A stretch of DNA of 64,000 bases from Lepraria neglecta (Eukaryota; Ascomycota; Lecanoromycetes; Lecanorales; Stereocaulaceae). The stretch spans positions 2,108,001 to 2,172,000 of the forward strand of contig CM065649.1 of assembly GCA_033220425.1 (NCBI GenBank). Reading direction: 5' to 3'. The position numbers were made by a program, and so were the translations under genes. Below are positions 5,935 through 59,795 of the stretch, piece after piece; the stretch's first letter is position 1; every line of letters begins with the position of its first letter. Below the pieces are notes generated by a model. That model was not told the DNA's origin and made no database searches. It was given only the letters and a program-made list of their open reading frames with translations.

Positions 5935-6370
5935 TCAAAGCTTGGGCTTCGCTGCGCAACATCAGTGAAAGAATTAAAAAGTCTAACGGCTCAGGGAAGA
6001 TTCTCACTTGGTGGCTGCTTTTCGCCGCTGATGCTCTCCCACTTCTGCTCCCATTCGCGAAGCCACGCCGAGGTCGTTGTATCCTTTCGAGGATTGTTCC
6101 AAGAGCTATTGCCAAGCATTCGGCGATAGATGTGTCCGCCGTGGAGATATTGTCCCGTTGCGGGTGGCTGCGGATGTGGGCCACCTTTGGAATCACTGCT
6201 TGAAGGAGTCTTGCTGCTTGCATTTGACTTTGAGTTACTGGCTGAAGAATCAGCAAGCCGTACCAGGAAGAAGACTGAGTCGACGAGGGATGTATCGAAG
6301 ACTCATGATTCGTCAGAACACATGATAGACGAGAAACGAGAAGAAAAGGTGGAAAGGTGACGGACGTCAT
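5935..6370 (-). CDS. WREWE-family small protein, copy A
   Basis: This model encodes 83 residues in three exons: ATGAC (6366-6370), 6008-6237 and 5935-5951. Intron 1 (6238-6365) starts GTCCGT and ends GCCAG; intron 2 (5952-6007) starts GTGAGA and ends GCGCAG. The summed length divides by three and the join is open throughout. The N-terminus is Ser/Lys/Pro rich with no signal peptide. The C-terminal half carries the array motif: GQYLHGGHIY, then NNPRKD, then AWLREWEQKWESI. The last exon adds only a few residues. I do not recognise the family; seven relatives lie downstream on the same strand. The protein is probably cytosolic or nuclear, with a disordered head and a helical, Trp-rich tail (inference). 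The splice choices were made by eye, so ends may shift. Confidence 0.6.
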
Positions 6371-8469
6371 GATGTCTATGTGAGAAGGCTGTCCGAAGTC
6401 AACCGTGCCAATGTTTCGCCGTAGGTCTGATGGAATGTGATCTTCGGGACGAGTGAGAAGATATCGCGGCTTGTTCTTACCATCGTGGTAAACGCAGAGG
6501 ATAAGGGAGTCTTCTTAAGATCCAAAACCTTGACAGCGTACGATCAATAGGAATAAAACCACCATCAAATCCGACGGGGTAAAATGATCATCTGAGTCCG
6601 CAACGATTCAGAGCCAAAAATTTTCTTTCTGGCGCAAAGCAACGAGTCCGGACGCGCTGGACACGACAACCCTGTGTCCAGGACTATCCGAGCAAGAGTT
6701 GCAAAACTCCGCTGACTCACGTGCTTCAGCGCGGGCGTGCATAGTCATGCATCCCATCGATTGCTACCCCCGCAAAAACCATGTGCGAGTTTTGACCCAG
6801 ACCCGGATTAGTTGCCTAAACCCTGTATTTGAAGCAATATCGCACGCATCTGCTATCATATAGATCCTGCAGGAAACTCTATGAGATTCTGAAAGTGTGG
6901 TCTAGCCGCAGGAGTATGGACGTTGTCGCATATAATACCCAAAACATGGTTTCGCGCATCACAGTTCTGTCTCGATTGCGGAACCAGGTAATCATTTCAT
7001 CTTCCAACTGAGTCTGAAGATTCGTGATCTTGGTTTCATGTGGCAGGTGATGAGCTGTCTCAGCTCGCAACTGCCGCTGAAACCTCACTCCAATGTTGGA
7101 GTCTTTCCCCATTGGCCCACATTGTCTGTTGAGACGTCCTTGAATACCTAAAGGGGAGCGGAAATGGAACTCAGCGCACAGATCCGAAGTCCTTTGCGAC
7201 GAAGACCCTTCCGAGGGCTGTGAGGGCCTATTTGAGGGTGGCAAACAGCAGCAGCCACCCCACTCCCACCTCACACAAGGTTAGACGTTGCTCGACAAGG
7301 CAGGGTTTCCCCCTCATCGCCTCCGAGGTATATCGCTAGCGCCTCGAGCCCCCTTCTTATGAAATAATCACGACAATGGGCCCAGGGTCAATGCTCCCCC
7401 TGTTGCCTGACCCTTTGCAGGTGGTAGCGCAACGAGAGGCTTAGGTTTCAGCAGTCATCCTATCGATGATACAACTAGCTATTCGAAAATCGCAATGCTC
7501 ACGAAGCTAAAAGCTAGAAAGGATTAGGTCAAAGCACTGTGGATCCTGTCTTGTGTGACAATGAGGTTGGCCGTTTCTCGCCAATTTGGGATGCCGTCAC
7601 CACGCTAAGCGTTGTCAAAGTCTGATCTCTGATGGCATTGCCATGATGCTTCATTGACAAGGATTGCATGAATTTGCGTCAATCATTTCATCGTATCTTT
7701 ATGTTCGTGTGCCTCGCTCCGTTCATTGCGGCGACTGCGGGGCTCTGTGCTAGCTCCCTCGGTTGCCTTCTTTTGCCTGAAGGGCCAAAACGGACGTTCG
7801 CGGCCCTCAGCCCGAACGTCTATGCGCTCATTTCTTTTGCTTTATCTTCAACCCACCTCGGTTTGCTGGCTCTCAGTTCTTAATCAACGCTCCGAGTTTT
7901 CTCTGATGTCAGCCTCTGACTACGCTTCTAAATTAAATTGGTACCATTTTGGGAGCAAAGCGACCAAGCCCATGTCCGGAAGCAATGGAGCAGGAGCGTG
8001 GTGAGCTTGTCTACGAGAGGGCGATCACAGAGTAACAGCACAACTGAAAAAAATAGTAGATTCATAACGACGGCCGTTGGAGTGTCATGCGATCATTAGG
8101 AGATACCGCGAGGATCAGCTTCCATAATTCCGCGAACAGAGCGCCTCTTCCTGGGCTTCCTCAAATCTCCTACGACAAGTCCCTATGATTATCAATCTGG
8201 TGTCTGCCAAGCCCAAATCTACACGAAGCCCTGGGCTCCGTCAAGAAAATAACAGTACAGCATGTCGCCAATTAAGTGCCTAAGTGCGTCAAGCGTGGCA
8301 GACTTCGACCACAAGCTTTGCTGGTGGCGTTACAAGGCAATGTTTCTAGTGTAGGTTTTCACTGCGAGACGTCAGAAAGGACAGCCTTTCTGTCTTGGAA
8401 GGAGGGTTTCTGACCAGTAAGCACGTACTACTACTAGTACATCATTTCAATGGCCATGGCTACACTTCG
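6371..8469. other. spacer between array copies A and B
   Basis: The spacer is about 2.1 kb with no supported gene. It includes the upstream region of copy A. Short frames near 6.9-7.3 kb and 7.7-8.0 kb lack motifs. Confidence 0.4.
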
Positions 8470-8880
8470 CTAATCTGTCGCAACTTGTCAGCAAATGCGT
8501 GACCAAGAATACAACGTAACTCACCAGCGGACCCTCCCTCGCCACCAAGACGCTCCCAATCCTCCTCCCACTCACGCATCCACTCAGAAATTGGCATATG
8601 GCCTCGGGGGTTATGACTGGTGGTGGCTATACCGTTTTGATATGTCTGACCTCTTGGGAGGTACTGCCCAGCATCTGACTTTCGTTGAGACTGTCCCTGG
8701 GTATTTCCAATAGCGAAGGACGTCGGTATGCCATCTCGAGGAATCCTGGAAGCTTTGTGCTCAGGGTCTTGATACGCTTGGCCTCTCGCAGCGGGCTTTT
8801 CAAGGACTGAAGCACCTTGCGAGGACCCTTGGAGTCGTCCAACGTTGGCAGGCTTCTGGCTGTTGTGGGCGTTTAAGGTG
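8470..8880 (-). CDS. WREWE-family small protein, copy B (start not fixed)
   Basis: Exon 2 (8525-8880) follows a GTTCCAG acceptor and ends at GTGAGT (8519-8524). A final five-base exon (8470-8474) gives Asp and a stop. With a five-base first exon the total divides by three, giving about 121 residues. The motif is GQYLPRGQTY, then HNPRGHMP, then SEWMREWEEDWERL. The N-terminal half is Gln/Ser/Lys rich and unlike other copies. No ATGAC lies in the expected place; the best candidate first exon is ATGCC at 9172-9176, followed by GTGTGT, which would imply a 291-bp intron. The long second exon is fully open, so the copy looks functional even though its start is uncertain. Confidence 0.5.
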
Positions 8881-10306
8881 CTGGAACGCAAGCATCAGCG
8901 AGTTGATCGGTCAAAAGGAGCGTGGAAGCGCCTAGATTGGACCGGCAACCAAAATCGAAAGTGACCAAGGCGCACTCGAATCAGACAAGGAAAGGCACAA
9001 ACGTAGCAGGTAAGATGGACCAACAAGACCCCAGTGGCAGGTCACTTGCAACAAACGATGTCAAGTACATGATACATGATGTACAGAAAACGCCATTGTG
9101 TGGATTGTCGGACAGCCTCTCGCAAGAAGAATTGAGACAATTTTGCTGGATATAATAGAAAAGCAACACACGGCATGATTTCGAAGAGAGTGGCGATATG
9201 TTCTTCGTGCTGTAGAGGCAGTGCGTGTAAACCTGAGGGGTTTGAGGATCCTAGGAGCAGTAGCGAGAGGTGGGCCGCATATGTATAAAGGTGTTGATTT
9301 GACGGGGAAGTTGAGGAACAAATTTAGGGTATAGATGAGGGAGCAGATATGAGAGCAGGTATGGGAGAAGATGTGGGAGAAGATGAGGAGATACATGAGG
9401 GGACACCAGGGGCTCCGTTTTTAATGCACCCAGCGTGTAACAAGGCGTCTCACCCGACCTATGCAACTTGGAGGAAGCATTAACATGCGCAGCATAAACA
9501 TGCGCAGCATAATTGCTGTCGACAGCAGTTTAGGCCGCGAAAGATCGATTTGAGATCCCACTAATCACGAATCGCTGAGACTTTGGCTCGTGTGCCAGAC
9601 GCTGCATGGAAAGCCGCTCCTGCAGCGGCAGCCAGTCCAAATCAGGTCGCATCTCCGGACAGTTACGCCAGCCTATACTCGGGAAGGGGGCAACTGCGCG
9701 TGGCATGATCGGTCAAATCCTGCAGATTCCGGACTTGTTGCCCTTTGCGTTCCACTTCAGCGCGTGGAGCACTTCTCCATCAGTGATAGCGCCATTCCAT
9801 GTTCCCCTAGCGTGCCCCTCGCATCCCCTGACAGAGCGCCGTCGAAGCCCGACAAACGTAGATCTGACAGGGCGAGACACTAACGAATGGCGACTAAGCC
9901 ACTGGGAGCCGCCAACGCGCAAGGCCGCTTGGCCAAATGTGACGTTGACGGACTGTGACGTTGGGATCTGAGACTCTAGTTTCCCCACAGTCACTGAAAT
10001 GAAGAAGATAAAAGCCACCCTGTCATGAGGATACATGCAAATACGACAAGGTCTTGTTTCTGTATTGAGGTTGAATCCCCGATGCGCGATAATGAACCTT
10101 GTAATTGCTTCGAAGAAAAGTGGCTCTGATGCCAAGCACAGTTTCTAACGCCAAGCTTTCGCAACATCCTTGCACGCACGTCAGATACACCCTTCATTAA
10201 GCTCAAATTTCCCCGGCTAATCGTTGTTCCTCCGCAGCTCCTAACATGACGGATTCCAGGCTCTACCGCGAGTGACATCTCAATTGCTGCGAGGAGTATC
10301 ACCTGC
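8881..10306. other. spacer between copies B and C, with low-complexity run
   Basis: No gene is recognised. On the plus strand at 9325-9405 there is a degenerate repeat of gagaagatg/gagcagatatga units, which read as Leu/Tyr-Pro repeats on the minus strand. This part would be the 5' intron or promoter of copy B. Confidence 0.4.
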
Positions 10307-10904
10307 TTAGACACAACCTGTCAGCTAAAATCGCCCTAATATAATGGAGTGGACAGTGAGTACTTACCCGGAAGTCCGTCTGACTTGCTGATGTCTTCCC
10401 ATGTTCCCTCCCACTCACGCAGCCACTGCTCCATCGATTTATATCCCCGAGGGTTTTTACTAGCACCAGATAAGGCCTCCTGGTACTCGTGACTACCTGG
10501 AAGGAATCTTCCAGCTCGTGTAGTCCGTCGAGAGTGTTCATGGTAATTATCGACACGACTGGACAGGTCTACGTCGTCTTGATGATCGTCGTGAGCCGTG
10601 GCAGCAAGGTCTTGGTCTAATTGGCCAGATTTTTGAACTTTGGAAGATGCTTGAGAGTCTCCGATGTTCGCAAGTTTCTGGAAGTCTTGAGTGTTTGAGT
10701 GACGAGGCCTGCATCAAAGAGTCAATCACCAAAATCGTAGCGGTGCTTTAGGCTCTTCGAAATGCATGAAAGGGTACACATTGTGAACAGAAGGCCAAGG
10801 ACTACTGCTGTGCAGAACAAGAGATAGGGAAATGAAACTTGTGGCCAAAACAACACGGGGTCACAATTGCAAAAGAGGTAACGGTGGATCGTAACGTACG
10901 TCAT
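10307..10904 (-). CDS. WREWE-family small protein, copy C
   Basis: This copy encodes 118 residues in three exons: ATGAC (10900-10904), 10368-10708 and 10307-10317. Intron 1 (191 bp) has donor GTACGT and acceptor GATGCAG; intron 2 has GTAAGT and CTGACAG. Both junctions keep one open frame. The first 70 residues are polar (Asp, Gln, Ser, His) and look disordered. The tail is GRFLPGSHEY, then KNPRGYKSM, then EQWLREWEGTWEDI, ending Cys-Val. With canonical donors at both introns and exact phase at both ends, this is among the best-supported copies. The function is unknown. Confidence 0.65.
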
Positions 10905-12429
10905 GTTGCCCTCAAAATTTCTGTTTGATTTGGTGTTCGAAGTTGTAGAGCAAGAGTGTGGATAGGACGTGTACCTAGGAAGCGGACGAAAGTCAGACAA
11001 ATTGTTGAGGACGTTGGGCTGACAAAAGATGCGTGGCTGTCGATTATCCTCAAGGGTCTGTGTGGTTTCGTGTATATAGATCCGGGTCGGTGCTAAGACC
11101 TTTATGCGAATAGGATAGTGGGGGTTGGCGGATCAGGAGTGAAAGGAGGAGTGAAACCAGGAAGTCAGGGAACGCCGGATACTGGGACTAAGAAATTGCA
11201 GCCTTGTGCTTGATAATCGAATCGTTCTCACGATTCGTGAGATCATGTTCCAAAGTTGCAGCTGGATGGCAGTTAAGGAATCACAGGTGTCTTAAATGAA
11301 AATGACAGAGGGACTTGGTGTCGCCTTTTGTTATTGGCCAGAACGCTCTCGAATTTAGCCTCACAAGCAATTCTGATGAGGTCTTCCATATTCGGCTCAT
11401 GAGGCAAGCCAATGGCAAGAGCTTGAACCAATCGAGTCCATAGGATGCAAGATCTGATTTAGCATTGGTACAGGTCGTTGAAAAATGGGCTATCTCCATT
11501 CGTATGGATCCAAGGTCATGTGCAGTGTTGCAGAGAGGGTTAGATGATATCTCTGTGTGCGATCAGATGGCTGCACTTAAACGAAGCTAGTGGAGTAAAG
11601 CAAGCAGCCACCATGCTCCACCTTACGCATGGTCAAGATCGTCACGGGAAATAATTCCCCGCTCGCCTGTTTGGTGGCTGCATGCGCCTGTAGTTCTCAA
11701 ACACATTGAGGTAATGCACCAAGTGGCTATAATGGCTAGAAAATAATACGAGTATCCAGAGCTTGGGCCAAAAAGAACAGGGATGAAACGCTCTGCAATG
11801 TAGGGCAGAATGTTGATCTGAGGATCAAGGGACTTGCCGCCGACAGCAGTGGGGAAACTTTATATGGTTGACATTTTGGGAAACTCCATATAATTGGTGG
11901 GTTCATCACCTGAGGCAGCGAATTGCGTCAAGGATTCTAGCTGTCATAAAGGGAAGAAAGTAGCTTTTTTACACGACGAACCATTGATCCGCAATCTAGG
12001 GGCTTATTGATGCCCTTAGTTCGCGTCTATTCAAGCCTTGGTGAGTCTTGTAAAGACTCTAGTTCAGTCAATGTTAAGCTGGCAAAGTATTTTGGCAGGC
12101 TTTGGAGCGCGGTGAGCAGATCATCAACCGAGTATTCAAGGACCTTTGCGATGGTGAAGCAACGTAGATTGATTTAAAATGAGCAGACATACATGGCAAG
12201 TGTCCATCGAATTTTCCACTGGAAGCTGTCATCGGCCCAAAAAAGTGCCTCTCCCGGTCTGCTGCCGGGCAGCACAGGAACACTCCATCAGGATTTAGAA
12301 GGAGTCCGATCCAGGCGTGTTGGGCCGCCATCAGGCTCCAGGCGGTGAACTTAAACTATTGTTAGTATTTAGGCCACGATGGCAGTAGTTTGCTATCAAA
12401 CTTGGCCATTATTTAGAGCTTCTAACTAC
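10905..12429. other. spacer between copy C and a transposon relic
   Basis: No gene is supported. A minus-strand frame at about 11285-11440 reads like protein (LPHEPNMEDLIRIACEAKF) before a stop but has no start, partner exon or family that I recognise. Confidence 0.35.
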
Positions 12430-13690
12430 CGAGCAGCCCTACGAGGCTTTCTGATACGTTGCCCTCTTCGCATTGGCTGATTCTGAAGCTCCCCGGAGCT
12501 CGCCTGCTCTTGGCTATGATACCCTGCCCACCGACCCTGCCGTAGTTCCTGAGTAGACACCCTTACTGGTAACACTACTACCATTCTGCGACGTCGTGGG
12601 GGTAGAGGAATGGGGCGGAGTAGGCTCGGCGGAGGTGGTCGATGGGTAACTGGGGTACGGCGTCTTGATGTAGCAGGTAGTCGCGGCAGTGCAAAGAGCT
12701 CTGGGCCTAGACGTCGTAGTCTTTTTCCCGCCTTAGCTAACTCTCTTAGTGCCTTCTCGGTACTTGCTTTATTGAATTTCTCAGCAGCGTCCTTCTTCTA
12801 TTAGTCGATAACGTGTTGATTTATAACCCTAGCGTTGTCCCAGTTACCTTTATCACGGCTAGCCTTGCGTTCCTTCCTTTTATTAAGCTCTAAAAGCGTA
12901 TTATTAGTAGTAGCGTGTATAGCTCAATCAGCTATTGTAACTATTACAGCTTTGCTTACTTTTTGAAGAGCTTCTTCTAGATTAATACTCTCCTTTACTT
13001 GGCGGAGTAACTGCTGGACCTATACTGTATTCGCTGATGTTATTGCGACTGTTATTTGACCGCTAGGACCTAAATAGTCGAGGGTTCCTTCTGGTAGTAT
13101 AGCAGGGCGAATAGTAACATTGAATTACTCGAATTGTACTGGCTGAGGAAAGTGCTTTAGTACTATCTAAGGATCGAATAGTGAGAGACCTGCTGCTGCC
13201 CAGGCTTTTTGGATATTGGTTGGTGTAATAGCTTCTTGCTTTACTTGGCGATAAAGCTCCAAAAAGTCAACTTTGTTAATCGAATAACTAGCACCAAGGC
13301 GTATAACTCGCTGGACGTGCTTTTTATATACTGACGACAAAGGCGCAAATACGCCAACGTCTAATAGTTATAGAAGGTGAGTGGTATAAGCAGGGAGACA
13401 TAAAACGATGATTTTATGAGCAATGCAGTACTCAATCGCAGCAGTCGAAATATGTGAAGCATGCCCATCAACGCATAGTATGCGGTATTCGCCTTTTTGA
13501 AAAGCAGCCGTCTCTGGATCAAAGCACTGTTCTATCTACTAGAGATAAATCTCGTTCTCAGTCCAGCCATTTTCACTAGTACTGATATAAGCTTCTGGGA
13601 AAGCGTCGAACCAGGCCTTTTGCTGCCGTACTGCTTTAAAGGCTATTGATGTCGATTCAATCGAAAAGGGGTCGAATATACAATAAAATC
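12430..13690 (-). pseudogene. Fot1/pogo-type DDE transposase relic
   Basis: The minus-strand translation shows the C-terminal two thirds of a fungal pogo-class DDE transposase: VDGHASHISTAAIEYC around the second catalytic Asp, then LPAYTTHLL followed by LLDVGVFAPL around the third, then YKKHVQR and a long Lys/Ser-rich tail. Intact proteins of this class have about 500-600 residues; here the N-terminal DNA-binding part is missing. The frame has stops at codons where Gln or Trp is expected (CAA to TAA, TGG to TAG), the pattern left by repeat-induced point mutation. At its upstream end the relic runs into the inverted-repeat block starting at 13742. The element lies in the gap between array copies C and D. 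Confidence 0.75.
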
Positions 13691-13741
13691 GACGACAGCA
13701 ATAAAAAATTTGAAATTCGGCCGGTTGGGGGGTGAATTCTT

Positions 13742-13968
13742 CTACCGTCGATTGCAGAACCATTGGCGCGAGAAAATCAGAATTTTGGGGGGCGCTCCGG
13801 GGGTAGGGAAGGCGGGCGAAATTGGCCAAAATTTTGGAAAACCAGCTATACAGTAACAACCAACGCTGCTCCGGGGGCCTAGTAGACGGGGAATTAACGC
13901 ACCTATCTAGCTCTATAAGGCCATAAGCTTTGTATATATATTACAGCGTTAGGGGGCTATCGCAAAGC
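13742..13968 (+). repeat. left arm of a large inverted repeat
   Basis: About 227 bases match 14239-14463 in inverted orientation, with scattered differences that are mostly transitions and one-base indels. Shared landmarks are ctaccgtc, gcgcgagaaaatcagaat, ggaaggcgggcgaaattgg and aaaaccagctatacagtaa. A third, direct partial copy of its second half lies at about 14025-14150. Confidence 0.8.
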
Positions 13969-14238
13969 AGGGTCATTCCTTGAACTCGCGCTAAAATCCG
14001 AGCAAATTCGCTGAATTATATAAAAACTAGCTGTATAGCGACGACCAACGCTACTCCGGGGCCCTAGTAAACGGGAAATTAACGGGCTCGTCCAGCTCTA
14101 TTAGGCTATAAACTTTGTATATATAGTACAGCGCTGGACAGCCATCGCAAATAGGGTTAAAAATCAGATTTTTTTTGTTTACTTTTCAGCCCTAACTGGC
14201 GCGAATTAACAAAAAAATTCAAAAAATTAAAAAATCAC

Positions 14239-14463
14239 CTTTGCGATGGCTGTCTGACGCTGCGTTAGATATACAAAGCTTATGGCCCAATAAAGCTGGA
14301 TAGGCGCTTTAATTTCCCGTTTATTAGGCCCCCGGAGCAGCGTTTTTTATTACTGTATAGCTGGTTTTCCAAAAATTTTGCCAATTTCGCCCGCCTTCCC
14401 TACCCCCGGAGCGCCCCCCAAATTCTGATTTTCTCGCGCCAATGGTTCTGCAATTGACGGTAG
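14239..14463 (-). repeat. right arm of the inverted repeat
   Basis: This is the inverted partner of 13742-13968. The 270-base interior holds a partial direct copy of the arm and an AT-rich run (14165-14235). The inner edges of the block share ttgcgatggctgtc, so two element ends probably lie head to head. It is likely the terminal region of the neighbouring Fot1/pogo element or a foldback derivative of it. Confidence 0.75.
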
Positions 14464-15334
14464 AGTTGTTCTAAACCAGTCAGCTTTTGAGCTTGGAGCT
14501 CAGTCTGAGAACATAACTTTAGGACTGCGCATTCGTGGAGATTTAACTAATCTAATGTGTTCCGGATCAATGATTGGCAGTTGAACAAGTCGTCTGCGAT
14601 GATGTGACCATGATCTTAGGCCGGGAAGCCGGTACTTTTCGGCAGACCGAGGAATTTCACGACACAGAGGATGATGACAAGGTCTCGAACGGTTGATGAG
14701 GGATGATAAGGGTATGCATTAAGCACGAAAAATGCCAAGACTGGAACTAGTGACCACAAGGCAGTGTTCGCGAGAGCCTGGTCTTGCGCTGACGAGTACT
14801 CTCGTTGCAATCAGACTGTTGGCGCGGCTCCTCGATCCACCACTCATCGCTAGTCGTGATCAATTAGATTCGTCAGGAACAAAGTTCCCCTCGCGCTGTA
14901 CTTGTGGTCGAGTATTTGCATCTGTTTTTCTAACATGTGTTGAGTTGGAACGAAAGTGTCTGCTGCACCATGTAAGCTTGAAGTGGGGAGTCAAGAATCT
15001 TTGGAACGACTGTTGGACTATGAATCGGATGTGGATGGAGCTAGAGGACAGCGAGTGTATGGCAAATGAGGTCTGATTTCATTCCCTGATAAGTCGTGTT
15101 CATCTATGATCCGGGTTCGTTGATCAATAACCATACACATTCGTAGCATCCTGCGCTTTTCCTTCTTCTTCGTTCTTCTTGCTGAAAGCGCCAACCGAGC
15201 CTAACACCACTCTTCACAATAGCAATCGGAGGTATAAGTAGTATTCCTTCGAAGCAGCATCAGACCCGTCCGAGCTGCGGATCTTCGCCCGTCTTCCGTG
15301 GCAACATTCATAGCTTGGGTCTCGCTATGGTGTA
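14464..15334. other. spacer, nothing seen
   Basis: Short frames near 14.6-15.1 kb lack motifs and splice signals. Confidence 0.4.
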
Positions 15335-15570
15335 TTAGCCATGTACATGACTATGGAAGACAAAGTATTGCTTACCTGCAGCCTTCCTCATTGCAGATGT
15401 TTGTCCACACCAGCTCCCATTCACGAAGCCACTGTGGCACGGACATCCTGTTGCGAGGAGAATCGCTGTGGTGGAGCTTATGCAGGACTCCTGGAGGGTC
15501 TTGGCTTCCGAGAAGCTGTTCGCCGAGTTGAAGGGGCTCTGCGTCGACATCTTCGTCATTGATCGAGTTG
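15335..15570 (-). CDS. WREWE-family small protein, copy D (start not found)
   Basis: Exon 2 (15376-15570) follows an acceptor GGATAG and ends at GTAAGC (15370-15375). The last exon (15335-15350) gives a few residues (Ser-His-Val-His-Gly) and a stop. A five-base first exon would make the total divide by three (71 residues). The tail has the late part of the motif well kept (PRNRMSVPQWLREWELVWTNI). The early [YF]LPxG part is poor (LLGSQDPPG), so this is the most divergent copy. No suitable ATGAC lies within 600 bases upstream, so it may have lost its start or use a different one. Confidence 0.45.
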
Positions 15571-18570
15571 CTATCCGGTGTTAGCGGTGCCCCTGGATGA
15601 CGAGGCGTTGAGGCTCAACACGGTCTGAGATACGGCGTCCGAGGTGAAGCCATAGGAACTCGGCGACGGAAGATAACCAAGCAGCGATTTAACTCTGCCA
15701 AACCGCGAAGAGTATCAAGCAGGGAAGATTTGGAACAGAGATAGCGCTTTAAGAAGACCGATATATAATATGTCACAGCAGACCGGGGACCAGTACAACG
15801 CTTGAGTAAAGCTCGTGGATGGAGAATGTATCGATGAGAGGCTTCAAAAACAGAGAAAGCCAACTCTTAATGTCGAAAAGATGTGGAAACAAGAGAGACT
15901 TTCAAGATGTCTCCTATCCTAGAAGGAGAACATGTTTCAATTATCAAAGCACAAAGCACGGACAGTGGTTTTAGAGGCTCCTCCATTGGAGGAGATATAT
16001 GGTGACGTCTTCGGAAACCGGGGGTGTGTGCTGAACAAAGCCACCAGAAGTTAAGACCCCCGCACCACGACTATGCAAAGTATTAGGGATATTGGGTACT
16101 CATCTGGATAGGCGGTCCGGTTTTGGTAATACTCTAACGATGAATTTGTGTGCCATTGGAGGATACCAATAGATCTCCCGCCAGATCTGTTTGCAAGATA
16201 TGTACGGTTCTCGCTCCTATGAATTTGTTGCCCACATTCGGACCTGTCTTATAACACTACCGATCCAATCACTTGCGATCGATGGGGATACTAACGGGGT
16301 TCTGCCTGTGAAAATTGTTTGTAGATCTATGAAACCTCGCATGCTTTCCGCAATGCGGTCCAATCATCTATCCTCTTGCTTTGGGTGTCCTTCTGAAACA
16401 CTGCGTCAACCCAGCTCTACAAAAATCACAAGCTTTAAAGCTCAGCCTTGCTCATAACGATTACAAACCCTCGTTTTAAATCTGCCTCATCTTATCAGTA
16501 TCTAACGTAGACAAGCACGAGCCAAAATAGAATGCCTTGCCGCAAGGCTAACATCGCAAATGGCACACAGGCGCATAAGTCTTACTTGGTCTTTTCCTTA
16601 GCGTGCAGAAAATGTTCCGATGATACAGGGTAATTAATATCGGGTATGCATACTGTTCTTGATATCTAATTCGATGGCAACATTCACGATCAAATTCTTC
16701 TGCCTATTAATAGACTATTTTTGCCAACGTGGTTCCTACACCCCGGATGATAATGCAGTGCGCCACACGGTCTATGAAACACAAATCCCGTGTTACTGGC
16801 TTTTATCTAAGCATTTTCAACGCTCTTTTCCTTGAGAGTTCAAACTGTAAATCACAGGACAATCACTTAAGATCGGGTACAGCCTACATGCCTGCTTAAT
16901 TCCCAGCTAAGCATCAATCATGGCGTCTGAAAGTGACCAAAGCCTCTTTCCCCAAAGAGCTATAGCCGAAGCCGAATGTTGGTCCGGCAGTCTACATCTG
17001 GCCTCTCGCATCCTTGCGCGGATGGTGTTTCTATAACTTCTAGGCGCCGGATGGGAGCATCTCGGACCGGAGTCAGTCAGGCTAGTTGTAAGTTGAGAGC
17101 CAGCCTACCGCTCCAACCTATTCTGCAGCATGGCAAAGGAACGCGAGACCGCTCTGGAAAGAAGTGGTAGCTAAGTAACAGAAGGAGGTCGCGCGATAAT
17201 CATTGCGGAAAGAGAAGTACTATAGCTCAATCAGTCGCCTAGCTGGCATTCGATTATGAGCTCCCAACTTAGGACGATCAAACCACCTTTCCCACAGGGC
17301 TTTCATCAACATCCAATCACAATTATAGTATGTGGCTTCGCTAAGTCGCCTAAGATGAAGGTACCATGCATTGACTTAGATTATCCCTGAACATCAACCG
17401 CTCTCTCAAGCACGGCCCTCATTCGACATGCCTACCGCACCATTGAAACTCCTCCTTGTCTACTGTTGCGATTCCTGGCCTTGCTGGCGTGGCTCCTCAG
17501 TCTGGCTCCAGGAAGAGGAACTCGACATGACGAGACGAAAACAATTCTGACATTGCCAATCTTGAATCAGGCTTCGCAAGCAGTACTCCAGAGCTTGAAC
17601 TATCAGTAACATAACATCAAGGTTATGAACAAGAACCTAGGGCGCCTAGGCTCGGCCGGTTCATCACTATGCATCCACCCCTTCTCAGGGTCGCGCAAAC
17701 CCAAAGGAAGATGGTGATTGCCTACAACGTCTCGAGGGCTCATGAAGATTAGTCTGTGCCACAGATTGATCGAAGAGATGGATAACGCAGGGGATGTTCT
17801 CCAGGGTAGAGAGTTGATGTCTGATACAAACAAAAGGATTGATTGTTGGTGCTCGCCACTGATGGACTCTGACGAGAAAGGAAACGAGCCTCGAGAGCCA
17901 ACATTGCAGATCGCTGCCCACCACCCAAGGGAAAGAGCCGGCGTCGTGTAATTTCAACCTCCCGGTTAGGAATAACCTGCGCCGTCTAGATAGTGGCACT
18001 AAGAAGATTCCAGGCATTTTCATCACTCCAAACCGTCGACTCGCTGAAACACTGGGGACTGCGATGTCAGCCGCACGGGGCTACTTCGTAGGAGTTCGTC
18101 GGAGTGACCAGCACCATTCCAGAAATTTACATCCAGACCCGATGGGGACAGCAAAACGACATCGAGAAAGGTGAAGGCATCCAACTCATGTCATCTCTGC
18201 ACCTCAGCTCACGTGTGCCATCGAAAGTCGACTTCTGCTACCCTCAGCCAATCTTGCGACCCTGGTCCGCTGTCGACCCCGAATACTCGCAGTGTTTCCA
18301 GTCTGTGAAGCAGCATCACGTCAACCTTGCTATCGCTGGGACTCGCGGAAGCAAGCTATACCGGAACCATTGTTGGGCAGCCGTTGGTCTCAGGAGCTGC
18401 TGCAACAGTCAGCAACAAGTGGAAGGCAGCAAGTTGTTGAGAACCGGGTTGTACCAATATATTCTCTCCACGTCATCATTGTAATATCCTTCCTCATCAT
18501 TCTAAGTCGTCAAACGGGCTAATCTTTTGCTGCGAGATGTTAGCTTCTGCAACAAGTCTAGGGCAGGCTC
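15571..18570. other. spacer between copies D and E
   Basis: Three kilobases hold no gene that I can support. Open frames at 17.7-18.0 kb and 18.1-18.5 kb overlap each other on both strands, have no motifs and look like chance frames. Confidence 0.4.
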
Positions 18571-19081
18571 CTAACAGATGTTCTCCCATTCCTTATCCCA
18601 ATCCGACAGCAACTGCGACATCGATAGGCCCTTCCGAGGATTGACACAAGCATTTGCCACGGCTGTCCGATACCACTCGCCTCCGGGAAGATACTGACAC
18701 GCTTCCGAAAGCGACGATGCTTGTTGATGGTTCCCGTCGACGTGCTCCTCAGAATTTTTGGCGGTCGATTCCCTAGCCAAAGGTTAAGCGATGCTTTACC
18801 TAAAGGTTGGACGTACGGACTTGTTGCGTTCTTCGCTCGTTGATGAGGTTGGCCCCGCATTTGAGGAAGACTTTGGTGGAGGACCAGGTGGGTAGTCGAC
18901 AAGGGGAAATTTCTGGTCGTATTTGTTGGATGGAGGACTATGAAAACAGTTAGAGAGACATTAATGTGAAAACAGAAACAATAACTGTGGAAGAGGACGT
19001 GCTGGGACAAAGAGGAGAGAATAAAGCTTTCGATGAGGATGGTGTGGGCCATTGGGAAGGAAGGGAGGGTACGAACGTCAT
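18571..19081 (-). CDS. WREWE-family small protein, copy E
   Basis: Minimal model: ATGAC (19077-19081, donor GTTCGT) joined to 18571-18772 (acceptor TTGGCTAG) gives 68 residues, in frame to a TAG. The tail is CQYLPGGEWY, then VNPRKGLSM, then SQLLSDWDKEWENIC; the usual Trp of the QW pair is Leu here. A longer model is also in phase: a middle exon at about 18817-18945 after TTTCATAG adds roughly 43 Pro/Ser-rich residues and leaves through GTCCGT, with a 48-base intron to the same final exon. Only transcript data can choose between them. It is closest to copy F, since both share the VANA and NPRKGLSMSQ stretches. Confidence 0.62.
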
Positions 19082-21900
19082 ATTGGACTCTTGATAGGAG
19101 ACAAACTTTTTTTGAGGGTCGATTTCTGAATGTAACGAGACCTTTTCTGGTGCTCTCTGCAGGGAAAGAGGTTGCGGAGGCAGACTTGACTCTCGGGATT
19201 GTTAAAGGAAGGGGGTTGAAAACAAGTTTGAAGGTCTCCGAGACCGCCGTCCTCTCCTAGACCATCGCCGATGGCTCCACCAGATCGCTCAGGCCAAGGA
19301 GAAGATAAGCAGAGTCACGAGATGCCATGTTAGCTCTCTCCAACTTGCCTTTCTTGAGAATTTCAGGTGAACCTGGGTGCCGATGCAATCGAGATCTCAA
19401 ACATAGATAGGAGATATCCGACAGCCCTGGATGTCAGTCTGTAAAAAGAAACCAAGTCCATCGCTGCATCGACGCAGGTACGAACATTAGGCTGAATAAG
19501 GAAGTAATGATGTTTCAAGCCGTAGGGCGCGTATGCATGAATTACCCCCACCAACCACGTGAAATCCCCGTCGGGCAAGCCTTGCAAGTCAATCTCGGCG
19601 CTGCCAGCAGGGTCGAATCATTCCCTCGGGTTTTCGTAAGGAACCCAGTCAATCAACCACTGTCATCATCTTGCGTTCGGTGTTCCCGCCGCAGCGGGAG
19701 GAACCAGTGCCGTGATAACCAGGGTAGTTCTAGGTGCTTCCGGCACCACACCAACGTTGACTTAACCAGCCAAGAAGCGCAATTAAAGAGATCTAGGCCT
19801 TTCTGCCAACATTGAGAAAGACAAGAAATTGAAGGAAACAAAGTGGCGCGCAAAAAGGATGTTCATTGGAGGTGGTAGCCTTGGACGTAGGTCGTCTTGT
19901 GCTGACTTTAGCCCAATGGGCCGTGTGTAGGGCTGTGGGGCTTTTGTGGCTTTCCTTAGAAGGCCTCCAGAAGCCTCCGAGTCCACGCTAGAAGGAAATT
20001 AGAAATGTCCCAAATTAGCACCATATTTTCGCGAAGAGACTAAGGGGTTCTCAATGTTGTTTGAAACTTCCAAGGCGCGAGCCTTTTCAGCTATTGCACG
20101 AAAAACGGCGGCAAAGGCTCGTATGGGTCGATTTACGAATTTGGATGGCAATGGAGACTTTTTCATGGTCTTTAGTTATCCTTCCCAGATCCCGGCAGCA
20201 TTTGAGGGGTCGGGGAGATGGAATTGGGGTAAAAGCTGGTCGAGGTTCACTAGAGGACAGGGGCTTACGGGTCATAGGCAAAGCAGGGTGAGGAAGAGAT
20301 CGAGATGGACATTCCCAGCAAGGAAAGACTATTCGTAAGTGCTGATTGAAGTGCTGGCATTTTGACGCCACAGGATCCTACGACAAGGATCGTTAATGCG
20401 ATGGTGGGGGTTTAGCGAAATGGGTGCCATCCTTAGAGAATGGGTGGTCAGCACCTGACTGTCGCCAATGTTGGACTCCTTGCGACGAGATGCCGACTTT
20501 GAAGTAACTTCTGTGCGGAAGCCAGTCCCGTGCGGAAAACCTGCTCGGATGGTACCAAGGCATCAAGAGGGGGGAGAGAGTGTGCAACTATTACCGAGCA
20601 AGCTTGGTAACGCGATGGACCGGACTGGTACGTTCATGGACCCGTGAATCAAGTTATTTTCGGCTTCTTGATGATCTCTCCTCTTCTCTATAAGCGACTA
20701 TCTACCGCTGATGAAGGTAGGGGGTGTGGAGCAATCATAACGCATTGGCAAAATGATATGATTGGGTCAGGTTGAAGGTTACTTCTGATCAGGCACGAAG
20801 CCTGGAAAAGCTTCTTGGAAGCTTCCTGTTAAGGCATTGCTCATAGTTCGGTCATTCTCCGGAAGTTTAAAACTGTTCCCATGTTGCCGCCAAGTAAGTC
20901 GATTATCTCAAGGTTGTTCATCATGTTTCGAGCAATGTGTATGTCTTAGTTGCAGTTCGGCATGACGGAAGAGCCGAAGTCGATAGCGTTTACGGACTTA
21001 GGACATTGGTACTACTGCAGGTACCAGAAACCATATCTTGCCGTTTGATGTGTGAGTGATACTTACGACTGTTCTAGGTAGGTCCGAGTTGCCTTCCTTG
21101 CCTAGGCGAACCATAGTTCGGGCTGGGGGCAATCTTTACAGCCAGGTAGTATCGCAACAAGCAAAGATGAAGTTTCGCTTTGAATTATAAATTTGTAACG
21201 ATAAACAAGACGAACAACTCATACTGCAAAGTCTTGGTATTTAGACCTCTTGTTGTGGAGTTATGGTGCTTGGAAGAATCTCATCTTCCTTGGCGCAGCC
21301 CGAACTATTTTTGCCGACACCGAGCCTGTTGTCGCTGAAGGAGCCAAGTCAACTGGGTTTGATTTTTCTGCTAGTGAACCCCCTGCTCAGAGTAAAAGAA
21401 GAGCTTTTACAAAATAGTGTTATGCTGTGCTATTGCTTTGATGATAATCATGTGTGTCTATGTCGATGCCGAGATTGCAGCAAAAAGCTAAGCGAACGGG
21501 ACAAATACAATTTAGGGCAATTCCTTTGACTAAAGTATACAGAGTCCACTGCGTGAGATGAGACTGAAAGCAAATGAGAGCCGTCAGGACGCGGGTGGCG
21601 GTGAAGGCAATGTATGATCTAAGACTCTGCCTCAGGGCACTCCGTGCCTTGAACTACGCACGCAGCAACATCTATGCTGAAATATACGCACTTGGGCGAC
21701 GCTACAAATCCAGTCATCTTATTGAAAACAACTTAACAGCAGCAAAGTGCCACCTTTTCATCGTTGAGGGTAGGTAAAGCCTAAGCTGATCATCGTAAAG
21801 AGCTTACGATCTAAGAATTTACCGCGAGCGTGTTAACAATGCAGCAATACATGAAGCATAAAATTTATGGCGTTCGGAAGTCTTCAATAGCTAATTCTTA
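19082..21900. other. spacer between copies E and F, first part
   Basis: No supported gene. The E-F distance (about 4 kb) is larger than usual, but I found no decayed motif copy in it. Confidence 0.4.
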
Positions 21901-21944
21901 GAAACTATTGGAGCGGAACACTTTTATGGGACACTATCCATTGA

Positions 21945-22196
21945 ATGGCGCTAGTACACCTGACTGATCTATCCAATAGCTGCAAAGCATGTCTTATTGC
22001 AGGCAGAAAGACTACTAAGACTGTCTCCAAGCGGAAGGCCTTAGGAGAGTTTTCAGTCAATACGGTGAAGAGGGTCAAAATGCCTCCCAAGCGCAAGGAG
22101 AAGACACCAAGGTCCAGATTTGGCTGCGCGCTTTGCAACATTAACTTATGTAATCATAAAAGATGTTGGAATGAGTATATAAGTGCTATTCAGTAG
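21945..22196 (+). pseudogene. possible piggyBac-type transposase C-terminus
   Basis: An 83-residue open frame has the order seen at the end of fungal piggyBac-like (DDE_Tnp_1_7) transposases: LSNSCKACLIAG, a basic linker (KRKALGEFS, KMPPKRKEK), then RFGCALCNINLCNHKRCW, a Cys-rich zinc-binding tail. The paired CxxC and LCxxxxCW are the reason for the call. The catalytic region is not visible upstream, so this would be a relic of a few hundred bases. The call is from memory of the tail pattern and is tentative. Confidence 0.4.
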
Positions 22197-22273
22197 CTTA
22201 TGGGGTGGTGGAGTTGATAATAATGTCGAAACACTACAAGGGCGAGGCTCCGCCATTCATGGGATAGTGTAGG

Positions 22274-22813
22274 CTAGACATTCTTGACGATGTCTTCCGA
22301 ACGCTCACTGACATCCTCGGATTTCTTCTTCAACTCACACATGCACTGCAGCAGCACCAAGTCCCTATGAATCTCATCAGGAATCTTGACTGCTGCTTGA
22401 GCAAAGAATATCAATAAGGATAGCTCGAAAGTCACGCGAAAGGTTTACTAACATGAATGCTCACTCTTTGGAGTGACATTTGCCCATGTCCGCTCCCATT
22501 CAGACATCCATTGCGACATCGATAGACCCTTCCGCGGATTTTCACGAGCATTTGCCACATGTTGTCGATACAACTGGCCTCCAGGAAGATGCCGTCGTAC
22601 ATCTGGAGACTCGGGTGGACTTTCTTGATGGTCTTCGTCTTCGATCTGCTGTACCTTGTGTCCAGTCTTTGTGTCTCTGCTAAAAGCGTTAACGGAGGGA
22701 ATCTTTCATGCCAACTTGCACTGAGAACTGAAAAGGTAGAGTTGGAAGCTGAAAACATAGCCGGAGCAGGCATACGGATAAGTTGCGATATCTAGTGGAA
22801 GAACTCACGTCAT
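22274..22813 (-). CDS. WREWE-family small protein, copy F, longest tail
   Basis: This copy has three exons: ATGAC (22809-22813, donor GTGAGT), 22465-22676 (acceptor TTTTAGCAG, donor GTGAGC) and 22274-22392 (acceptor CAAGCAG). The total is 111 residues and divides by three. The motif is RRHLPGGQLY, then ENPRKGLSM, then SQWMSEWERTWANV. Unlike other copies, the last exon adds about 38 charged residues (IPDEIHRDLVLLQCMCEL, then KKKSEDVSER) that look like an amphipathic helix. If intron 2 were retained the protein would stop after SEHSC at 77 residues. The intron-2 acceptor is a CAGCAG pair, so one residue could vary by splice choice. Confidence 0.65.
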
Positions 22814-24950
22814 AATATTCTCAGACAGGAGGGATATGTTGATCCCCTTCGCGACAATGATAAAATTAAGCTGTTCCTAAGGCTGTTATTCTGAGAATGA
22901 TTGATAGTATGAGGATAATTTCTGAGCAAACTTTCCATGTTTGCATAAAGGACAGAGTTCCGGGTATTTTTGCAGTGGAGAGACTCATACGCTGATTCGG
23001 CGTTTACTAATGTGCCAATAAAGCAACTGGCACTTGCACAAGCAGCCACCCATGATTGGCACATACTAAAAGTACGCCATGGGAGCGACAGCGCATTTCC
23101 AAGGGTTCCAGAGCTGGCACGTCACAGACAACGGTACCGCTGATATCTCTAGCCTAATGGAAGAAACATGGCCTCGAAAGTCAGCGAGTAGATCTGCATG
23201 GCTTCGACACTAATATCTGGACAGCCGGGAGGCCAATAAGGACTAACATAGTATGGCTTCGGGGGTCGGGTGAAGTGGTGGGGCCCGCTAATAAGTTTGG
23301 CTTTCTGTGTCTTTGCTTTGGGCATAAAGGTTGTCTTTGAAGCAATCCTTCTGGGACTGACATACCATGACTTTTGTGGCAGGATTTCATTTCTGACAAC
23401 AGCCTAGATCAAAGCTATCATGCGAGGCCTGGACGTTGAAACCCCTATGAGGGGTCCTCGCACGGCCAAAAAGTCATCTATTCATGAAACACTAATTCTA
23501 TGAGGCCTGCACAGCGACGAAAGTCAGCTCGTCGATGACTGATGCTTTGAATGAGGGGGCTCTACGCCTGTGTCCGCTAAGGCAAGGCTCGATATCCAGC
23601 TTTTGAATTGACTAAACCGGCTAAAGGTGATGCTCGCGAGCGGCACAAGCGTCTCGGTCATGATTTCTTGGTCTGAAATTTGAACTCGTATTGACTAAGA
23701 GATGATCTTAGGGCGAAAAGCAAGATCATGGTGGCTGATGCCAGTACAGCAGCCTGCAGAAGACCCGAATATCGCTCACCAAAAGTGCGGAGGATGATAA
23801 TGACGGTGATGATGGAGATAGTGACGATAGTGATGTGACGAGAAGTGAGGCTTTTCTTCTTGCGGTGGCCGGCAGTAATCTAGTGCATCGATTTGCGGGG
23901 CCGATATATCCCTCAGCGAAAGATCGGTCGATGATCACGCTCACCTCGTTCGCAAGATAGCTTGATTGTAGCCGTGTCAAGCCCCAGGTACATGATCCAA
24001 AGTGTGATAGGTCAAGGCATTTCCGGAGCCTCGACTAGGGCCCTAGCTGACGCTATAAACAATCCGTGGAGAGCTCGGCGGAACGTGCTAGCCTTAAATC
24101 TCAGCTACAAAACACATGCACGAGGCCATCACCCACCAATGAGGAGTAGGGTAGGTGAAAGCTGCCGCTTTGTGCGCTATTCCACATTCGTTAAACCAGT
24201 GGTTTTACGAATGCGGGATAGCGCACACGGGGAAGCTAAACGAAGCCAGGATCGCCCCGATTGCTGCCGGGCCAGTCTAAAAACTCGCCGATAAGGAGAC
24301 GGGAAATTCCTGCTTGCAAGATGCATTCCAACTCTCAGCGACAGCGTATCAGCATTGAGCATTTCCGTGGTCGATTGGTGCAATATGCAGCACACTATCA
24401 ATCCACAAAGTCTCTTGGCAAAAGACAGCAGGCACCCAATGAAGTGATGAGAGACATCTAAGGATGACAACGTCTCACTAGCATCTCGTTTCCGATTCTC
24501 CAATGCGAGAAAAATGAATATCGAGGGGATTCTAAAGAGCTTGGTAGCGCCCTGACGCAGTATTCATTAGCCACATAGTTACATGTATCACCTACTGTGA
24601 GGATCCTAGATCACTCTACGCCTACACTTTTAGCCCAATGGCTCACATCTCTTCAAGCCCGATTTTCATGCAACGTCAGTCACTCCAGAACAATGTCGAT
24701 CGATAATCCAAACTAGAGAAAATAGGGCTATTATGAGATGAGGACAGCATGTCAGTATTGAAGGTCAATGGTCTGAACCCTGCCTCAGGGATGTTAGCAT
24801 TTCAACACTAAAGCCTTGGACCTGGCCGACTGACCAGGCATCAATCACTTCCGCTCCTAACAATACATATTAAATCATTCGTTGAGTGTTCCTTTGGGTC
24901 TGGCTACAGCCTGTCAGCAATGGCGAACCGGAATATCGGGATACAGATGA
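22814..24950. other. spacer between copies F and G
   Basis: No gene is supported. Frames at 23.7-24.5 kb overlap on both strands and lack motifs. Confidence 0.4.
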
Positions 24951-25560
24951 CTACCAAGTATCATGCCCGCTTTTGTCACTAGCTTTATTCCAATTCTTCT
25001 CCCATTCACGTAGCCACTGCGAACCAGGTGTGGAACCCCGAGGGTTCTTGCTAGCATCGACTAGACCCTCTTGATATTTCTGACCTCGGGGAAGAAAAGA
25101 TCTGGCGCCCGAAAACTGTTGGGAAGTCTCTTGTTGATTGTCGATACTGACAGGCGTGACTGTATCCTCTTTGGTGTCATCAGAAGTCCGGTTTGCTGGG
25201 TCTTGATGCGTCTAGCCATCAGAATGGCAACGCCGCTGCGTACCTAAAGGGTCTTCGGAGCATAATGGGATTATCCCTCCATCCTTAGCCTTGAGGGTGT
25301 CTTTTGGAACACTGGGAGATGAGTAAGTGAGTGGGCTACCGGGTGACTCTTGTCGATTTTGAGACAATTCAATCGACAGACGACCAACAAATTGCAGACA
25401 TTTGTTTTAAAAACAAAGTACTGTTATATGGGTGGGTGGGTTGAAGGATTATCACAAGAATTCAAGTAAGGTATTAGTGGACATGACAAAGACAGTAGGA
25501 GATAGGATTTTCAGCATGAAGCAAGTGTTATGGTGGTATTGGAGAGAAGACTAACGTCAT
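24951..25560 (-). CDS. WREWE-family small protein, copy G
   Basis: ATGAC (25556-25560, donor GTTAGT) joined to exon 2 (24951-25146, acceptor CCTGTCAG) gives 66 residues ending HDTW. The phase is exact, but the implied intron is long (409 bases), and upstream sequence stays open in the same frame for part of that length, so an extra exon may exist. The motif is ARSFLPRGQKY, then SKNPRGSTPG, then SQWLREWEKNWNKA. There is no separate last exon. The role is unknown. Confidence 0.52.
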
Positions 25561-27055
25561 GTAAGGTGAGAGACCTATGATACGGTCTGTGACTCGAGAT
25601 ATATGTTATTTTTTATGGGCTCTGTACAACGATTCGAGGGCACTTTGACTATCGGTTGCAGACAGTCGTTGAACGGACAAGCGTTGAGGACGGTAAACCC
25701 TTCTTATCATATCTATGAGCATTGCCGGACCCCTCCAAATGAACCGTCAGCAAGCGAAGGTGATCTCACGAAAAGGAAGGACGCAAGGGGATGTATGGAC
25801 TAAACTTGAAGCCTGCAGTGACAGCAGATATGAGCAGGTATGCGCCAATGCAAGACACGTATCGCAATGGTCAATCGGTGAGCATAGTAAGTGTGGCACG
25901 ATAGCCAAACCCCCCGGTCCTACATGGCTTCACTGTATGCCGACCCATCAAGCAACTCAATTGGCTCCGTGCGAAGAGGACTATTATAAACATGGCGTTA
26001 CAGCTTCCTGCATGGCTTGGCAGCTGCATATGTTGGGATCGATCTTCTCCAACTTCCCGATCCTTCATATCAATACGGACTAGTGGCCGGTCATAGAGAA
26101 ATGAGCATAATGTTGAAGGAATTTTACCCTTGTGATGCATACGAATCCATTGCTTACTGAAACGGATGTATTTGCAGCAGGAAGGTCTAGTGCTTTCCCG
26201 CCCACTTTAGAGGAACGGGCCAGTAGCTGGAAGAATGTAGCAGCAAATAGAATTGGAGCCAGGATTAAAATTCTCGTATGGTTTTATGGTTAGCGAACTT
26301 CGAGGCGTTTACGCTGACACAATGTCACCGCTCACCACTGCAGTTCTCCGAGCTAAAGCCTCAAGGGGTTAACGACACTGGTGATCGCTTATTCTAGAAC
26401 GTCTTCGAACTAAGAGCAGATTGGGCACACAGACCCAGGTTCAGCGGTCACCAACACTAATACTTCAAAAGGCATGGTGCTTGCAGGGGCATGGCGTTGC
26501 GTCATGGACGCCTTCTTTTGCCTAGACGGAACATGCCAGCCCGCGCCACTATGAAATTGCCTCAGTCCATGTTCTTCTTTCCACTGCTCGTCTACATCAC
26601 TGGTGCCGTTTCATAGAGTCTTATCTTTATCGAGGAATCTGATGACAGCCTGCTGCAGCCTTCGAGGCTTATTCTACGCTTCTAAAGCTGAAAAGGCCCT
26701 GATCGTAGTCAACATGCTAAGTGAACTGGCTAGATTATTATATTTTACGCTATCTGGACTTACGAAGACATCCCCAATCTCACAACATGATTTCCGCCGC
26801 CATGATGGACGATTTGAATGATAGGCTGCGCCTTGTAAGATGCTACCTTACAGCTTGATCCTTCACACTAAGTCAATGAGCTCAATGTTCTTGGGCAAAG
26901 CAGTCGGTAGCACTGACCTTACAGATTTCATATAACTTCTTTCCTAAGCCCCCAGCCTCACTTTAATGCCATTAACTCCTTTTGAAGGCTGTCTAGAGCC
27001 TCTGCTGCCGTTTCCGCGTAATTCAGCAAGGCCAGCTTCAAGTTCAGACAGATTG
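25561..27055. other. spacer between copies G and H
   Basis: No supported gene. Frames around 25.6-26.1 kb and 26.6-26.8 kb have no motifs. Confidence 0.4.
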
Positions 27056-27338
27056 TTACTGACTCGAGACTTGGGTTGTTGGACCATCGTCATCCCAAGT
27101 TGCCTCCCATTCAGATATCCACTGCGACATAGGTTTACCGTTTCGAGGATTATTACGAGCATTGGCTACGGACTCCCAATATTTCAAGCCTCCGGGAATG
27201 TACTGGGCTGCTTTTAAATCCGGCTGAGAGTGTCCATAAGGCTCGGTGGCTTCGGTGTTCTTTTCGCGATGATTGGCTCGTTTGCCACTAGCGAAGATAT
27301 TAGTGAAGGACCTCCCCAAGGCCAATGTCTTCAAGCGA
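27056..27338 (-). CDS. WREWE-family small protein, copy H (start not fixed)
   Basis: The exon opens after the acceptor AGCTCTAG in the phase needed for a five-base first exon, which would give 95 residues; a second acceptor in the same phase (CTTCGCTAG) lies 40 bases further in. The motif is AQYIPGGLKY, then NNPRNGKPM, then SQWISEWEATWDDD, with a TAA at 27056-27058. No ATGAC is found upstream. An ATG at about 27640 followed by a GTAGTT is possible but in a different phase. A degenerate minisatellite (27360-27530) sits in the would-be intron and may have disturbed the start. Confidence 0.45.
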
Positions 27339-27359: not shown

Positions 27360-27530
27360 GGGAAATTTTGCAAGGCTACGAAGTGGACAATCTCAAGTCA
27401 TGGAGATCAACTCAAGGCTGTGGAGGGAACAGCCTCAAGGCTATCAAATGACTTATCTTGAGACTGCGGAGAAAGACTTGAAACCTCAAGGCTGTAAACG
27501 GGAAGATCTCAAAGCCGTGAAGGAAAGAGT
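27360..27530 (+). repeat. degenerate minisatellite
   Basis: About five imperfect units of roughly 30-36 bases are built around ctcaaggctgtggaggga and its variants (caaggctac, tcaaggctg, tcaaggcta, tcaaggctg, tcaaagccg). Unit spacing is irregular, so it is an old or partly coding-like repeat. Confidence 0.55.
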
Positions 27531-59743: not shown

Positions 59744-59795
59744 CTGTTTTAGAATTTTAGCACTGAGGCAGAAATTTCGAGTGAGCACTGAAAAA

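Follow-up and report, generated by a model that had tools for sequence, protein, structure and literature searches.

Filamentous ascomycetes carry small orphan or effector genes in tandem clusters that are lineage-specific, and in a different kingdom the micro-exon genes (MEGs) of schistosomes combine very short coding exons with multi-copy, variable small proteins. Here we analyse a stretch of 64,000 nucleotides of contig C4 (CM065649.1) of Lepraria neglecta (C4:2108001-2172000, hereafter the window; the genome comprises 42.0 Mb in 11 contigs), where an earlier inspection of the letters, the sequence-only reading, had described an array of eight small minus-strand genes with a common tryptophan-rich motif. 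As in the ascomycete clusters, the predicted products are small, the array is tandem, long open frames are few and the copies are variously decayed. As discussed below, we propose that the array is a family of small genes (family 1) under selection on the protein, that most copies begin with a coding exon of only five bases and that a second family in the same region (family 2) has in part the same gene plan. The five-base start exon, two further copies, the second family and the signs of decay were missing from the sequence-only reading and are new here.

All eight segments that had been placed at about 6.0-27.1 kb are present where they were described. Naming them c1 to c8 by their coordinate in the window, their stop codons end at window positions 5991, 8460, 10336, 15372, 18571, 22448, 24951 and 27056, respectively. 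When the proteins of c3, c6, c1, c2 and an outside copy, c10, were used as queries against the whole genome, each found the identical ten places. These are the eight window copies on the minus strand and two copies outside the window, c9 (C4:2004055) and c10 (C4:2005921), which are on the plus strand, opposite to the other eight. The family has at least ten members, eight of them in a 21-kb part of the window and the other two roughly 110 kb away, the counts of the genome searches being lower bounds. The matches between siblings have expect values (E) of 6e-4 or better, down to 4e-17, except for those to c4 (15.4 kb), the weakest sibling, with E from 0.0011 to 0.32 across the five queries. As judged by these searches, the resemblance within family 1 is not chance, because protein queries recover the siblings genome-wide at low E. 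The family of short proteins that had been suspected is found, by the same five genome-wide queries, in one region of this genome only. A scan of the 6742 open frames in the surrounding 264 kb with a profile of the motif gave the same ten copies and then weak matches (best E 0.011), the three strongest of which, at 2071.5, 2131.1 and 2179.1 kb (E 0.011, 0.13 and 0.81), were the ones inspected by eye and were rejected as extra copies.

The C-terminal consensus of family 1 is (Q)YLPGGxxYxxxxANAxxNPRxxxSxxQWLREWExxWExI. The motif first proposed, [YF]LPxG...Y, then NPR[GK], then QW[LM]xEWExxW, captures the common core, but not every copy follows it to the letter: c4 is without the LPxG..Y half and retains the C-terminal half, c5 (18.6 kb) has QLLSDWD, c8 (27.1 kb) has IPGG and QWISEWE, c1 (6.0 kb) has LHGG and AWLREWE, and c2 (8.5 kb) has EWMREWE. 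Across the eight aligned window cores only one P, one R and two W are invariant. The expectation that DNA similarity would be low with the motif kept can be given a number, the DNA identity of the motif between window copies being 64-85% over 28 pairs, with c5 and c6 (22.5 kb) the top pair. The N-termini had been called unrelated and polar; the modelled proteins are indeed very polar, but c2 aligns well upstream of the motif with three copies, namely c3, c7 (through one TAG) and the outside copy at C4:2003983-2004195, at 35-51% identity. No branch is supported in a tree of the ten motifs, and around family 1 the spacers are without match between copies at the comparison sensitivity used, with only exons still matching.

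Selection was examined with nine family-1 copies, c4 being left out. In frame, the ratio of the proportions of nonsynonymous and synonymous differences (pN/pS) is 0.57, and pN is smaller than pS in 36/36 pairs, the pairs not being independent; in the two shifted frames used as controls the ratio is 0.94 (pN<pS in 24/36) and 1.35 (5/36). With estimated substitution rates, dN is smaller than dS in all 26 pairs with usable dS, ten more being saturated in dS, and the closest pair, c5 and c6, has dN 0.28 and dS 0.49. Because the in-frame ratio contrasts clearly with those of the shifted frames, purifying selection on the family-1 motif is supported, which bears out the earlier claim of selection on the protein.

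We now turn to the beginning of the genes. Upstream of eight of the ten copies there is a candidate first exon of five bases, ATG plus two bases, followed by a GTNNGT donor, with the next exon in phase 2. The two added bases are AC in six copies, CC in c2 and AA in c9, so six of the eight copies with a start exon would begin with Met-Thr. Within the window the sequence ATGACGTNNGT is confined to the minus strand, with five occurrences, each upstream of a family-1 copy (c1, c3, c5, c6 and c7); it is also found upstream of c10, with ATGAAGTTAGT in c9 and ATGCCGTGTGT in c2. In 7/10 family-1 copies the sequence ATGNCGTNNGT precedes the motif by at most 600 bases, compared with 2.0% of 20,000 random places, and 9 of its 17 sites in the 264 kb precede members of the two families. 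We read ATGACGTNNGT as a predicted five-base coding exon together with its splice donor. If the start exon has five bases, the second exon should therefore begin in phase 2. In eight of the ten copies the acceptor that scores best within the open frame is indeed in phase 2, against a background of 29 phase-2 sites among 113 AGs, a result that we take as supporting only, the weights of the score having been set by the author after the sequences were seen.

A scan blind to the motif, requiring ATGNN followed by GTNNGT, a branch site, a YAG and a phase-2 open reading frame of at least 55 residues, with the longest kept, was run over the 264 kb; it is built on a gene plan that was first noticed in these very copies, and it passes 12 of 42 start-exon sites, seven of which are c1, c2, c3, c5, c6 and the family-2 copies d1 and d3, in the right frame. 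Under a looser rule, which drops the branch site, allows introns of up to 450 bases and keeps the longest frame, the family frame is recovered for c2, c3, c7, c10, d1 and d3.

The introns of the models are about 130-410 bases long, and the window copies, all on the minus strand, are modelled as follows. The start exon of c1 (ATGAC, donor GTCCGT) is at 6366..6370 and its exon 2 with the stop at 5991..6237, giving 83 residues that start MTNSKS and carry the motif as QYLHGGHIY...NPRK...AWLREWEQKWESI. For c2 the start exon (ATGCC, donor GTGTGT) is at 9172..9176 and exon 2 with the stop at 8460..8880 (141 residues), and for c3 they are at 10900..10904 (ATGAC, donor GTACGT) and 10336..10708 (125 residues). 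A segment resembling exon 2, with half of the motif and with no start exon found, represents c4 at 15372..15570 and is probably degenerate. The start exon of c5 (ATGAC, donor GTTCGT) is at 19077..19081 and the last exon with the stop at 18571..18772; the two-exon model has 68 residues, and an extra middle exon is possible by eye. The start exon of c6 (ATGAC, donor GTGAGT) is at 22809..22813 and exon 2 with the stop at 22448..22679 (78 residues), an alternative acceptor three bases on, in the same phase, scoring 0.05 higher. For c7 the start exon (ATGAC, donor GTTAGT) is at 25556..25560 and exon 2 with the stop at 24951..25146, giving 66 residues with a 409-base intron. Exon 2 of c8 with the stop is at 27056..27287, where a phase-2 acceptor is present and no intact start exon with donor was found. 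Outside the window, the model of c10 has 116 residues.

Family 2 came to light when open frames from the two islands were matched against the open frames of the region. Its motif is AIERYLSExDPWKxFLVIGK, with five clear copies, d1 (C4:1995417-1995680), d2 (C4:1996747-1996992), d3 (C4:1998712-1998969) and d4 (C4:2000655-2000954) on the minus strand and d5 (C4:2105565-2105882) on the plus strand, 2.1 kb left of the window. A weak member, d0 (C4:1991725-1992021), has E 0.0005 over the whole frame and 0.009 over the best stretch; it is without the W/FLVIG block and as a query matches only itself. Genome searches with d4 and with d1 lead to one common set of five places, in this region only, and over the five copies the core has pN/pS of 0.37 with pN<pS in 10/10 pairs. 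Candidate start exons are present in two of the six copies, ATGTC with donor GTACGT in d1 and ATGTC with donor GTGAGT in d3, both followed by phase-2 second exons, with two acceptors of the same phase possible in d1; by eye, d4 has a longer start-exon variant, and d2 and d5 have no ATG at that position. A gene plan like that of family 1, with a start exon and a phase-2 exon, can be predicted for at least two family-2 copies. Homology of the two families themselves was rejected (hhalign E 0.6, probability 0.1%; another comparison E 0.25 in a different register). A third family was also considered in cluster A, where the repeated pieces at 1997.7 and 2001.9 kb align as drifting spacer, much gapped, in which by eye no open frame has been retained.

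The sequence-only reading knew no family with the family-1 motif, and no significant match exists in Pfam, PHROGs, PDB or IMG/VR, against which the novelty of the families is judged. The eight exon-2 proteins of family 1 match no Pfam family at E<=1; with the eight cores the top match, seen for one member only, is to DUF6866_N (E 0.14; 12.3 bits against a cut-off of 27). The best E values of family 1 are 0.056 in PHROGs and 0.3 in PDB, neither of them significant, and in IMG/VR 53 stretches fit a pattern and none was confirmed. For family 2, five proteins match no Pfam family at E<=1, and PDB gives no match. A literature search gave no title on this motif, and in the part of the literature that it covered there is no word starting WREWE and none of six peptide strings. 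Both families may nonetheless be present, even named, in other databases.

As for the proteins, the eight models c1, c2, c3, c5, c6, c10, d1 and d3 have a grand average of hydropathy (GRAVY) of -0.79 to -1.47 and 0-3 cysteines each, and by hydropathy none has a hydrophobic N-terminus, the top mean of a 12-mer in the first 40 residues being 0.46. The Trp-rich helical tail proposed earlier is consistent with the helical moment: in tails cut by hand, the last 14 motif residues exceed shuffled ones (fraction <0.05) in eight of the ten copies, giving an amphipathic Trp-bearing tail if it is helical, with c1 (0.051) and c8 (0.177) failing.

Based on these data, we propose the following model. The five-base exon would be spliced to the phase-2 exon to encode a polar N-terminal tail and the conserved C-terminal motif. 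The proteins would probably stay inside the cell, as hydropathy gives no signal peptide or membrane segment. Because of the polarity and the helical moment, the N-terminal tail is expected to be disordered and the C-terminal motif to form a helix with the tryptophans at i, i+4 and i+8 on one face, and this Trp-striped helix would bind one partner protein. Copies would be gained by tandem duplication and lost by decay, a birth-and-death turnover of the kind that might be expected for a role in conflict, recognition or dosage. The data support reading the array as a group of small protein-coding genes and not as the remains of a transposon or pieces of a single gene, and at least six copies are very likely real genes. 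That the genes form a family which is under selection and has the start exon is highly probable, the docking mechanism is a tentative proposal, and the whole statement, a small-gene array with a disordered tail, a docking Trp helix and birth-and-death turnover, has in our estimate a probability of about 0.5.

Several points weigh against this model. The gene models of family 1 are predicted from sequence alone, and for c4 and c8 no recognisable start exon with a donor was found upstream. The acceptor score fails in c1, where two AGs are adjacent and the out-of-frame neighbour scores slightly higher, the phase-2 site being second by 0.15, and it fails also in c9, whose start is the deviating ATGAA. 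The first scan takes c9 in the wrong frame, misses c7 and c10 and passes four unrelated sites, and under the looser rule c1, c5 and c6 have a longer frame other than the motif frame. The sequence of c7 homologous to c2, further upstream, has an in-frame TAG, and perhaps four of the ten copies (c4, c7, c8 and c9) are broken or wrongly modelled. The helix and the binding of a partner are suggested by composition only, and birth and death is by itself no demonstration of conflict.

Other explanations have to be weighed against the proposed model. The decay just described, with half of the motif gone in c4, no intact start exon for c8 and the upstream TAG in c7, together with the ATG lost in d5 and d2 (by eye) and the missing block of d0, would also fit relics of a tandem family that formerly had a use and is by now largely in decay, its constraint historical and most of its copies idle. 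We think this rather unlikely, as the models of c1, c2, c3, c5, c6 and c10 retain the start exon, donor, phase and open frame, and as pN stays below pS in every pair of the nine copies, including the closest, c5 and c6. That the array is a tandem expansion of effectors secreted by a fungus associated with plants or animals is suggested by features that are in general typical of effectors, namely small size, tandem clustering, variable copies and few long open frames; it appears improbable given the absence of a hydrophobic N-terminus from all eight modelled proteins, the few cysteines and a start exon that yields Met-Thr, Met-Ser or Met-Pro, after which the sequence is polar.

The end of the motif invites a more specific reading. 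Atg8-interacting motifs (AIMs), defined as W-x-x-[ILV], bind as strands, and a C-terminal W-x-x-[I/L/V] of this AIM/LIR-like (LC3-interacting region) kind could make the proteins small autophagy adaptors or decoys. Eight of the ten copies have W-x-x-[ILVM] at the motif end (7/10 without M), the tetrads being WESI, WERL, WEDI, WTNI, WENI, WANV, WERM and WQRI, with WNKA and WDDD not fitting, and an acidic residue stands three before the final W. A four-residue motif is weak evidence, however; strand binding disagrees with the helical moment of this tail, and family 2 has WKQF or similar in place, so that we consider this reading very improbable. Descent of the motif from a Ty1/copia Gag is suggested by a loose W..EWE likeness to Retrotran_gag_2 (PF14223), in which WLxEWE resembles Gag segments, and the window has, as read by eye, a copia-like element at 49.2-51.3 kb. 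This origin was rejected and seems extremely unlikely: two Gag regions of this genome, among the 22 PF14223 places listed, reach no more than 2.4 bits against the motif profile, Pfam has no significant match to the motif, and five direct searches at E<=10 gave only the ten family places, all in one region and not dispersed. Lastly, TGACGT is a known bZIP core, and ATGACGTNNGT might be a conserved promoter element (bZIP/CRE-like, after the cAMP-response element) and not a start exon. For such an element it would be hard to see why the constant bases continue as GT..GT, why the variants preserve ATG and GTNNGT but differ in the base that follows ATG (ATGCC in c2, ATGTC in d1 and d3) and why most of the best acceptors are in the matching phase; moreover, no 6-8-base word upstream is common to the copies above control. 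We regard a promoter element as most unlikely.

The proposed small-gene family can be extended to a broader form. In most copies the codon divided by the intron is ACN, TCN or CCN, so residue 2 is Thr, Ser or Pro whatever base exon 2 adds, and second exons could be swapped without loss of the start. A cassette system might then exist, in which a fixed five-base start exon is joined to unrelated second exons in two or more families, and the products would be docking peptides diversifying in genetic conflict or recognition; we hold this form to be unlikely.

Concerning the history of the arrays, the spacers around family 2 repeat at 71-75% identity, about 2.4-4.3 kb apart, and pieces at 2104.3-2105.9 kb align with cluster A in the opposite orientation; because of these repeated spacers and inverted matches, tandem segmental duplication with inversion is the likely origin of the arrays. 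Between the clusters, C4:2014000-2030000 is AT-rich (GC 0.365) and has indices like those of repeat-induced point mutation (RIP; TA/AT 1.50, substrate index 0.45), whereas the arrays themselves do not show RIP-like dinucleotide indices. Between c3 and c4, at window 13741-14464, there is a 724-base element resembling a miniature inverted-repeat transposable element (MITE), with long terminal inverted repeats (96% over 51 bases, 88% over 184) and no second copy in the 264 kb examined. Short repeats lie beside c2 (9333-9385, 12-base period) and beside c8 (27369-27538, 31-base units). Among the 39 of 1298 candidates that were scored no 5.8S rRNA was recognised, and comparing two window proteins with the PDB gave no clue to the species. 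Further to the right in the window, 49167-51254 on the plus strand holds the copia-like retrotransposon remains, with overlapping frames and labelled by eye, a 308-residue piece of which has no Pfam match at E<=0.001, and 53290-59748 holds adjoining genes for a UbiA prenyltransferase, a tryptophan dimethylallyltransferase, a cupin (below cut-off) and a cytochrome P450, which looks like a secondary-metabolite cluster.

Gene finders readily overlook very small genes whose first exon is tiny. Should the models be right, the region has two well-defined orphan families, the five-base start exon would explain a possible oversight in annotation, and the conserved motif would be a concrete handle for finding the partner. 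The families would moreover have expanded in tandem in a genome with RIP-like mutation, perhaps because their short, diverged exons escape RIP.

Compared with the known systems, the locus differs from the ascomycete orphan and effector clusters in that its proteins have no signal peptide by hydropathy, few cysteines and a Trp-rich C-terminal motif, and in that a five-base start exon is predicted in both families. By description it resembles the schistosome MEGs in its very short coding exon and its multi-copy, variable small proteins. Here, by contrast, only the start exon is tiny, whereas in the MEGs micro-exons are numerous and internal, and signal peptides are present.

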